Below are positions 3,149 through 18,674 of a stretch of 27,680 bases of DNA, piece after piece. A program made the translations under genes and the position numbers. Under the pieces are notes generated by a model that saw only the letters and a list, made by a program, of their open reading frames with translations, was not told where the DNA came from and searched no databases. The DNA is from a virus: positions 1-27,680 of the IMG/VR virus record IMGVR_UViG_3300031539_000246, one strand, 5' to 3'. Each line of letters begins with the position of its first letter. The stretch's first letter is position 1.

Positions 3149-3254
3149 TGGTGGAGGCGTCGGGAATCGAACCCGAGTGTAGCTTTTCGCACCTGTTAGG
3201 AGTGCCCTAATCCTATTTAGCGGTGTTATTCCGCTATCGAAACCTTACGCCCCC
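3149..3254 (-). ncRNA. 106-nt tRNA-like RNA with tmRNA-type ends
   Basis: The minus strand reads GGGGGCG at 3254-3248 and CGCCTCC, discriminator A and encoded CCA at 3159-3149: a 7-bp acceptor stem with a G.U at the third pair. A perfect T arm (TCGGG/CCCGA, loop TTCGATT) precedes the 3' strand. After the 5' strand comes TAAGGTTTCGATAG, without a normal D stem but like the GGxUUCGAC D-loop of tmRNA. G3.U70 with A73 are the alanyl-tRNA synthetase identity elements shared by tRNA-Ala and tmRNA. No arm has a canonical anticodon loop. The centre instead forms TAGCGG/CCGCTA and TTAGG/CCTAA hairpins. Normal tmRNA is about 350 nt, so this is a much reduced relative, a remnant, or a new tRNA-like RNA. 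Confidence 0.6.
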
Positions 3255-3257
3255 ATA

Positions 3258-3962
3258 TTAAATACTGCAATTTGTCTTACTTACGAATTTATTTAGTTTT
3301 AGCCATATATCCTCTAAAGCAATAACATCTTTTTCGTTATGGTCCAATATATAGGCAAGAGCTTTTTTATCTCCCCTTGCCCCTGCAATCCAATACTTTG
3401 GTGTAAGGTGTGTCTTTATACTTTTACCGTTTAAAGCTCTGTCTATTGTTTCTAATCTATTATTATTTAGTTTTAATTTTTTCCTTGCTATACACCAAGT
3501 ATCATCATTTTGTATGCTACCGAAGTGTGGGAAATCTATTCCCATAATTAAAGCTCTTGTTCTTATATAGGGTAAATCAAACCGTCTACCATAATGGGCT
3601 ACCAATCTGTCAAACTTCAACATATCTGCTATTAAGTCTTTAACTATTCTTTTATCTGTCTGATCTTGTGGGTATTTATTTATATCATTTATGGTTATTA
3701 CATCTTTAAGTATTCCTGACCCGCCTCGTGGTTTAATACAATAACTTAAAATTATTCCCCAGTTAGCGTCAAGGTTAGAACATTCAATATCTAAAAATCC
3801 TATCTTCTCTTGGATTTCGGGGTGTTCTTGGAGATAACAATTATAATGCTCAAGATAGTTGTGGCTGTGTTTACACTTATGGCTGTATAACCATAATATT
3901 TCTTTCTTTTTTAATCTGTGTATAGGACATTTAACTTTTTTAGCTATCTTTTTTGTAGCTAT
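3258..3962 (-). CDS. DnaQ/YprB-like 3'-5' exonuclease (RNase H fold), apparent ATA start
   Basis: Read from ATA at 3962-3960 this is a 234-residue protein. Motif I is GFLDIE (D58, E60), motif II is VAHYGRRFDLPYI (D129), and motif III is ILDHNEKDV (H208, D212). These are the acidic residues of DEDD exonucleases, closest to the YprB/RNase_H_2 group. Residues 12-42 hold C-x2-H and several further Cys/His, suggesting a small zinc module. An ideal AAGGAGG (3976-3970) lies exactly 7 nt before ATA, and the following codons read ATKKIAKKVKCP. No ATG, GTG or TTG is in frame until Met114, which would delete motif I. The gene follows the methyltransferase, whose stop overlaps its ribosome site. Confidence 0.8.
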   Translation of the reverse strand: MATKKIAKKVKCPIHRLKKKEILWLYSHKCKHSHNYLEHYNCYLQEHPEIQEKIGFLDIECSNLDANWGIILSYCIKPRGGSGILKDVITINDINKYPQDQTDKRIVKDLIADMLKFDRLVAHYGRRFDLPYIRTRALIMGIDFPHFGSIQNDDTWCIARKKLKLNNNRLETIDRALNGKSIKTHLTPKYWIAGARGDKKALAYILDHNEKDVIALEDIWLKLNKFVSKTNCSI

Positions 3963-3974
3963 TTTATTTCCTCC

Positions 3975-4670
3975 TTACTTAAATAATAATTCTGGAATAG
4001 CATTAAGTCGCCTTCGTGCTATCTCGCAATATTCCGGACTTATTTCTATACCGATATATCTACGCCATAATTCTTTACAAGCTACTGCGGTTGTACCTGA
4101 ACCGAGAAAGGGGTCAAGGACTATATCTTCTTTATTGGAACTATAATTTATTATTTTATAAATGACTTCTAAAGGTTTTTGAGTAAAATGAAATTCATTT
4201 TTGCAAGATTTTATACTCCAAACACTACCGCATCTTTTTTCCTTTAGGATATGTTTGTCTTTTACGGCAAAAAGAATAGATTCGTAATTATTCGCATAAT
4301 TACCTCTTAAATCTCCTAATCCTGTAGCTTCAGTTTTTTTATACCAAATTATTTGATTTTTAACCTTGAAGTATCTCCTAAATTTGATAAACAAATAAGG
4401 GTAAACATCAAATCTTGTAAACCAGTAGATAGCTGAATTAGTTTTTAAAATTCTCTTGAACTCCATTAAGATATCATCTAAGAAAACCATAACTTCAAAG
4501 CCTGTATCCCCTATAATGGTTTCACTATTATTTTTATAACCCCTTTTAAAATCTATTCCATACGGTGGGTCAGTCACCACTAAATCCACACTCTTATCGG
4601 GTATCCCCTTCATCACTTCAAGACAATCACCACATATTATTTGATTGATATAATCTTTTGGATATTCCAC
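3975..4670 (-). CDS. DNA methyltransferase, beta class (N6-adenine or N4-cytosine)
   Basis: A 231-residue S-adenosylmethionine-dependent methyltransferase. The catalytic motif DPPY is at residues 34-37 and comes before the cofactor-binding motif DPFLGSGTT at 186-194, the beta-class order. QKP (164-166) and GIEISPEYCEIA (207-218) complete the N6_N4_Mtase pattern; the region between (about 60-150) would recognise the target. DPPY favours N6-adenine, but N4-cytosine cannot be excluded. No restriction gene is adjacent, so it is probably an orphan enzyme protecting phage DNA. The start is GTG at 4670, sharing one base with the stop of the zinc-ribbon gene, with AAAGGAGG upstream. Confidence 0.92.
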   Translation of the reverse strand: MEYPKDYINQIICGDCLEVMKGIPDKSVDLVVTDPPYGIDFKRGYKNNSETIIGDTGFEVMVFLDDILMEFKRILKTNSAIYWFTRFDVYPYLFIKFRRYFKVKNQIIWYKKTEATGLGDLRGNYANNYESILFAVKDKHILKEKRCGSVWSIKSCKNEFHFTQKPLEVIYKIINYSSNKEDIVLDPFLGSGTTAVACKELWRRYIGIEISPEYCEIARRRLNAIPELLFK

Positions 4671-18047: not shown

Positions 18048-18674
18048 TTAAATCATCTCCTTTAATAATAATCCTAAAAGTATTGGATTTATTATTTTAT
18101 CATTTTTTGATAAATTCTCTTCTTTAGATAATAATCTTAAATTATATAAACTCCAACATTGTAAAAATTCTTTATCTTTTGGACTATTAAATTGAAAAAG
18201 TCTTATAGGTAAAATGTGGTCAATATGTAATTTACCTTGCAAAAAATCTTTCCATTTGTAATCTTTGGGAATAGTAGATTTTAATCGTTTAATTAAATCA
18301 GTTAAAGTGTAGTTAATTAAACATTCCCAATGTCTTCCATTTTTATTGCCTTTTAAAGACAATCCTATGGCTGTATTAATTCTATGATTAAGATTAAATT
18401 TTAAATCTGTTTTACGTTTATACTTTTTTCTTTGATTTATATCTTTTCTATTTTCAGACCGATATTGTTTCCACCGTTTTTTCTCTTTCTCAAGATTATT
18501 TATACGATATAATTTATTATATTCTTCCCTTTTTACAGGATTGTTTTTTATCCATTCTTTAGACCGTTCTATTTCTTTTTCTCTATTTTTAATATAATAT
18601 TCTCTACTATATTTTTTCGTATATTCCTTATATTTTTCTCGCCATTCTTTCATATATGCTTTTTTATCAAACAC
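18048..18674 (-). CDS. HNH endonuclease inserted among virion genes
   Basis: A 208-residue nuclease. Residues 1-90 are a very basic helical region with repeated K-x-Y/R-E patterns. The nuclease core is KLHIDHILPI (149-157) followed by SLYNLRLLSKEENLSKNDK (175-193), the His-x-Asp-His and Asn-Leu-Arg-x-Leu elements of HNH homing enzymes. The frame's first start is GTG at 18674, with no clear ribosome site; ATG at codon 8 is an alternative. It fits a free-standing homing nuclease. Local sequence is richer in A and T than the surrounding genes, consistent with later acquisition. Confidence 0.82.
   Translation of the reverse strand: MFDKKAYMKEWREKYKEYTKKYSREYYIKNREKEIERSKEWIKNNPVKREEYNKLYRINNLEKEKKRWKQYRSENRKDINQRKKYKRKTDLKFNLNHRINTAIGLSLKGNKNGRHWECLINYTLTDLIKRLKSTIPKDYKWKDFLQGKLHIDHILPIRLFQFNSPKDKEFLQCWSLYNLRLLSKEENLSKNDKIINPILLGLLLKEMI

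Follow-up and report, generated by a model that had tools for sequence, protein, structure and literature searches.

A 106-Nucleotide Phage RNA with the tRNA-like Domain of tmRNA and No Normal Tag Frame: A Candidate Competitor of Host tmRNA

Results

The stretch of DNA analyzed here, called the window, is a virus record of 27,680 bases with genes for a major head protein, an internal virion protein and an endolysin. A 106-nt RNA gene occupies positions 3149-3254 of the minus strand, near an exonuclease-like frame and genes for a DNA methylase, a thioredoxin and an endonuclease VII. Read on the minus strand, the order of its parts is GGGGGCG-TAA-GGTTTCGA-TAGC...GCTA-CAC-TCGGG-TTCGATT-CCCGA-CGCCTCC-ACCA. 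The 5′ strand of the acceptor stem, GGGGGCG (3248-3254), forms 7/7 pairs with the 3′ strand CGCCTCC, including G3 with U70, and the latter strand is followed by A73 and an encoded CCA (3149-3159). The D-loop, GGTTTCGAT (3236-3244), is of the tmRNA type and common to all kin, and the T arm is TCGGG-TTCGATT-CCCGA (3160-3176). The original prediction had listed the G3·U70 acceptor, A73, the encoded CCA, an ideal T arm and a tmRNA D-loop, all of which were confirmed by direct reading; it had placed about 60 nt between the two halves, and 62 nt were counted from the D-loop motif to the T-arm motif. These observations firmly establish a tmRNA-type tRNA-like domain (TLD) that has neither an anticodon arm nor a normal tag frame.

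The halves are joined by a short arm that starts with a 4-bp helix in the register of tmRNA helix P2, as in the relatives. Its strands, TAGC (3233-3236) and GCTA (3180-3183, with the linker CAC next at 3177-3179), were assigned by a fixed-register test and by counts among the relatives. Farther along the arm, CACC (3222-3225) is predicted to pair with 3190-3193, and TAGGA-TTAGGGCAC-TCCTA (3197-3215) forms a putative apical hairpin. By its sequence, GGTGC (3189-3193) could either complete the inner helix as its 3′ strand (GGTG) or be the partner of the loop in a possible pseudoknot (GCAC/GTGC); the two modeled pairings are mutually exclusive. Predicted helices occupy most of the 57 nt from the D-loop to the linker, and the folding energy of the RNA has a z score of -2.98.

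The limited space in the arm bears on whether the RNA could be a real tmRNA whose very short tag frame is concealed there. Two-amino-acid tags are known in 25 bacterial sequences (PMC11915505), and the triplets GCG GAA TAA follow the D-loop in the window, with GCA GAA TAA in relatives. However, GCG GAA TAA lies just a few bases past the D-loop and overlaps P2, the triplets are absent from three relatives (L216, L063 and L034), and the room beyond P2 is about 15-17 nt in the commonest RNAs and 4 nt in the shortest. A two-codon frame within the window RNA retains a small residual chance, and we regard a concealed tag as very unlikely.

The original prediction had suggested searches with the Rfam tmRNA models and with ARAGORN. 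RF00023, the tmRNA family, was the sole Rfam match across the window (52.3 bits, E 4.5e-18), spanning model positions 1-374 with the middle absent. This match is borderline, the gathering cut-off being 47 bits, and its score depends on the flanks: a 306-base sub-range had no match at the gathering score and a 401-base sub-range aligned worse. Since the score barely exceeds the cut-off and varies with the flanking sequence, the case for tmRNA identity was not built on it. ARAGORN called no tRNA and no tmRNA in the whole window, and accordingly no canonical tRNA fold with an anticodon arm was found in the RNA. The program likewise called none of the mini-tmRNAs at 24 loci, though the adjoining tRNAs were called. 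The model of permuted tmRNA, RF04321, gave 19.6 bits, where the cut-off is 47, and direct reading agrees that the gene is not permuted, its 5′ acceptor strand coming first. Alanine identity and P2 are features of standard tmRNA that the window RNA has; the mRNA-like region and the further pseudoknots are absent. Because it measures 106 nt overall and has no mRNA-like region or later pseudoknots, it was not classed as a standard tmRNA. The features that it combines, namely a tRNA-like domain, no mRNA-like region for a tag and a phage carrier, are those of the type without coding sequence known from phage DS6A.

Beside the window RNA, neither a promoter of the sigma-70 type nor a terminator was found above chance. 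The open frame upstream of it, RNase_H_2 or exonuclease-like (3258-3974, minus strand; Pfam PF13482, 2.1e-9), ends at 3258, and the RNA starts after 3 nt. This frame directly follows the methylase gene (3975-4670) and is open from 3974, yet it has no ATG, GTG or TTG before 3623, which leaves its start codon uncertain; translation may begin at a rare start or read on from the methylase gene. In related phages, too, the RNA starts 3-4 nt downstream of a stop codon or overlaps a frame's end, but the genes found upstream are different ones (phosphoesterase-like, radical SAM). The RNA abuts the upstream stop at loci L526-L531, as at 3255-3258 of the window, and overlaps the gene end in L527 and L529. 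Excision of the mature RNA would leave the upstream mRNA with nearly nothing past its stop codon, or without one where the two overlap. Elsewhere in the window, a 208-amino-acid protein (18048-18674) has four separate homologues, 42-53% identical to it, in a 12-kb stretch of a related phage (L530: 2090-2746, 3921-4481, 6807-7190 and 13573-14166), a pattern suggestive of a mobile gene family. A nucleotide search of isolated phages with a 5-kb structural stretch of the window gave no match.

Relatives were sought by scanning IMG/VR for the tmRNA D-loop followed a short distance on by the T arm, acceptor pairing being required afterwards. Many raw matches proved to be ordinary tRNAs that had the motif upstream by chance. 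To exclude them, the acceptor had to pair at offset 10-11 and the T stem had to be paired; a looser filter that passed some tRNAs was not used. All scans together gave at least 150 distinct RNAs built in this way, 63-140 nt long, at least 138 of which differ in their P2 strands; these counts are lower bounds that depend on exact-match patterns, and a few weak members (e.g., L041) may be false. The scan with a gap of 107-137 nt found no RNA of this build. Full-length tmRNAs are also common in IMG/VR, with at least 120 in one 31-nt length bin. Five Markov-resampled copies of 4.5 Mb of loci gave no match to the D-loop/T-arm pattern. The first scan ignored the acceptor and gave 70 distinct pattern matches; among these, 7/7 acceptor pairing occurred 19 times at the tmRNA offsets 10-11 and once at the remaining offsets between 7 and 27 taken together. 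On these two grounds, the pattern exceeds what chance would produce.

Carriers include the isolated Streptomyces phages LuckySocke, pSt2308, BRock and Shaeky, Pontimonas phage phiPsal1 and Stenotrophomonas virus Jojan60, in whose records the site has no RNA feature and, in Jojan60, is overlapped by a hypothetical protein. Several of the RNAs lie among tRNA genes: one between tRNA-Tyr and tRNA-Phe within a 20-tRNA array (L152), another inside an array of 12 tRNAs (L321), and those of L038/L039 and L018 immediately before a tRNA. In 84,980 bacterial and archaeal genomes, a pattern requiring encoded CCA and a 45-75-nt gap had six matches, and L202 and L207 alone passed the structural filter. Among 40 carrier virus records, many of them fragments, none had an SmpB match, so the phage RNA would rely on the SmpB of the host. 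None of the 40 had a second tmRNA above the Rfam cut-off. A full-length tmRNA in relatives would have counted against the original prediction; the relatives' records hold only the short form above that cut-off. Its candidate of a phage tmRNA that has shrunk, keeps alanine identity and lacks a tag frame was right.

The scans also brought up neighboring cases. The RNAs of L159, L173, L185 and L186 are 138-140 nt long, and a short tag frame is possible before the P2 3′ strand (in L159, GCA GGG TTG ACC GAG TAG); instead of being tagless, these may be functional tmRNAs of minimal size. In Tunturiibacter phage Tunturi_4 (L521), a gene annotated as an RF-1 domain release factor lies directly beside an unannotated permuted tmRNA (116-463 and 468-877; RF04321, 79 bits), possibly as two adjoining ribosome-rescue genes. 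Unannotated permuted tmRNAs are also present in Rhodobacter phage RcSimone-Hastad (L522, 470-757, 109 bits) and Xanthomonas phage Rb1 (L523, 470-775, 103 bits).

The P2 pairing is conserved by compensation. In the fixed register, P2 begins at the base that follows TCGA and ends three bases ahead of the T stem. Its pairs 1-7 were formed in 100, 100, 98, 93, 91, 89 and 85% of the 89 RNAs listed of 76-83 nt, while in a control with swapped 3′ strands from RNAs of this length pairs 2-7 were formed in 41-53%; pair 1 is nearly invariant and therefore uninformative. Pairs 2-4 behaved likewise in the 11 shortest RNAs and in 29 RNAs of 89-118 nt among the matches listed. At one and the same position, P2 reads TAGC/GCTA in the window family, TAGGA/TCCTA in L216 and TAAGG/CCTTA in L063. 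In the apical hairpin, pair 2 changes from A-U to G-C on both sides among the window RNA, L025, L038 and L018. With four sequences, this covariation would by itself be weak support for the arm structure. The inner helix CACC/GGTG does not vary in the relatives. A related copy in L018 (4908-5012), directly before tRNA-Trp, forms 2/5 T-stem pairs and has an intact acceptor, and is a decaying copy or a sequence error.

It had also been proposed that the RNA is a remnant, here of a full tmRNA; a related idea is an attP copy of the host tmRNA gene. Phages Yeezy, TPA4, Shandong1 and Oscar do have a tmRNA-like 3′ end beside an integrase gene. In the window RNA, unlike in these phages, both halves are present and paired, and there was no Phage_integrase match in the window or in nine related records, and the attachment-site reading was discarded. 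As to a remnant, the relatives are equally short and their TLD is nearly identical, though the shared proteins are 30-87% identical. In L063, where proteins shared with the window span that range and a tail gene, the RNA and a small gene follow one another as in the window, the RNA is 98 nt long, with T arm and acceptor identical to those of the window RNA and a different arm. The TLD kept in divergent relatives and the compensatory changes in P2 and the arm led us to reject the remnant as well, and we find either origin barely credible.

Alanine identity was followed in 80 distinct RNAs listed by scans that left the acceptor stem unfixed (51 clusters at 80% identity). All 80 have G·U at 3-70 and A at 73, while pairs 4-69, 5-68, 6-67 and 7-66 each occur in four or five forms, by compensation. 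ACCA is encoded in 9 of the 80 RNAs listed; an unencoded CCA is common for phage tRNAs. G3·U70 is common to full-length tmRNAs, and inheritance contributes to its retention. Nonetheless, since G3·U70 and A73 are invariant while the rest of the RNA diverges, the sequences argue that chargeability with alanine is still under selection.

An acceptor stem with invariant G3·U70 and A73 would also fit a decoy of alanyl-tRNA synthetase (AlaRS) or EF-Tu, or an alanine source for another reaction, acting without SmpB. EF-Tu contacts the T arm and the acceptor. However, P2 and a D-loop of the tmRNA type are kept too, although these roles require neither, and no enzyme using alanyl-RNA was identified among the neighbor genes scanned. 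We therefore consider this explanation unlikely. The decoy offered by the original prediction held up in kind; titration of AlaRS or EF-Tu alone is less well supported than competition with tmRNA for SmpB, which has its precedent in DS6A.

Discussion

In tmRNA, the tRNA-like domain is the part to which SmpB binds, which AlaRS charges and which EF-Tu delivers. We consider it somewhat probable that the window RNA is a phage-borne tagless tmRNA and a competitor of its host counterpart for SmpB, EF-Tu and stalled ribosomes. It consists of the tRNA-like domain and of a short P2-based arm that takes the place of the mRNA-like region and of the pseudoknots beyond it. The RNA would be made as a stable transcript with processing of the tRNA type, charged with alanine by host AlaRS through G3·U70, bound by host SmpB and EF-Tu-GTP, and set against host tmRNA for SmpB and stalled ribosomes. 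Having no template and no stop codon, it could not complete trans-translation, and host tagging and rescue would be damped during infection. The occurrence of these RNAs in viral contigs, tRNA arrays and isolated phages, and their near-absence from bacterial and archaeal genomes, support this explanation; the carrier records are mostly fragments. Sequence, architecture, conservation and phage distribution were established here, as was the lack of an SmpB match in the phage records, and others have shown inhibition of tmRNA in E. coli for a similar molecule; that the window RNA itself would be expressed, charged, bound by SmpB and inhibitory is what we infer.

The main rival to inhibition is rescue without a tag, in which the charged RNA, brought to stalled ribosomes by SmpB and EF-Tu, takes the nascent peptide and drop-off or hydrolysis of the peptidyl-RNA frees the ribosome, as suggested for mitochondrial tmRNA. 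An alanine identity that is strict in all 80 RNAs listed suits such a factor. We know of no release step for a tagless RNA of this kind, which counts against it. Mitochondrial tmRNA, which has no tag frame, is retained together with SmpB (PMC11915505), again in keeping with rescue. A TLD-only molecule like that of DS6A, however, is reported to be a strong inhibitor of tmRNA in E. coli, perhaps through titration of SmpB (Mao et al. 2009, as cited in PMC4131195 and PMC11915505). We see tagless rescue as possible but rather doubtful.

Inhibition by competition has its own point to explain. SmpB titration is reported to be effective whether or not the RNA can be charged (PMC4131195), so titration alone leaves a strict alanine identity unexplained. 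The invariant identity may point to use on the ribosome, the least secure step of the argument. We tentatively suggest that tagless alanine-charged mini-tmRNAs could be a widespread, unrecognized anti-trans-translation device of tailed phages, acting as dead-end acceptors of nascent chains on the ribosome and not as mere SmpB sponges. DS6A provides the one phage RNA of the kind named in the literature that we found. More than 100 distinct viral ones are added here, some in isolates without annotation, which turns a curiosity into a class. Whether phages inhibit trans-translation in this way, and why they keep the RNA chargeable with alanine, are questions now open to work in culture.

Standard one-piece tmRNA (ssrA, RF00023) shares with the window RNA the G3·U70 acceptor, A73, CCA, the tmRNA D-loop, the T arm and the P2 register; it differs in its mRNA-like tag region, in the space for later pseudoknots and in its length of about 350 nt, compared with 106. 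Permuted two-piece tmRNAs (RF04321, RF01849-51) have the tRNA-like domain in common with it, whereas the window gene has the 5′ acceptor strand first. Tagless tmRNAs have been reported in mitochondria and two plastids (PMC11915505). The mitochondrial (RF02544) and Mallomonadaceae plastid (about 65 bp) forms resemble the window RNA in having lost the tag frame and kept the tRNA-like domain, but they are organellar and not virus-borne, and the mitochondrial ones are usually permuted. A 2025 tmRNA database holds nine standard-form tmRNAs without coding sequence and 79 phage tmRNAs overall (PMC11915505). When we searched the literature for previous descriptions of such a class in phages, DS6A and the organelle cases alone came up, which is no proof that a widespread phage class has gone unreported. 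DS6A is reported to carry a TLD-only tmRNA without coding sequence (PMC4131195, PMC11915505). Compared by description, the RNA of this mycobacteriophage (tmRNA Website) is, like that of the window, phage-encoded, with little beyond the tRNA-like domain and no tag coding sequence; it is reported to resemble the plastid form of about 65 nt, whereas the window RNA is 106 nt long, has a longer arm and belongs to an unrelated phage. The window RNA belongs to a kind already known from DS6A and barely described so far.
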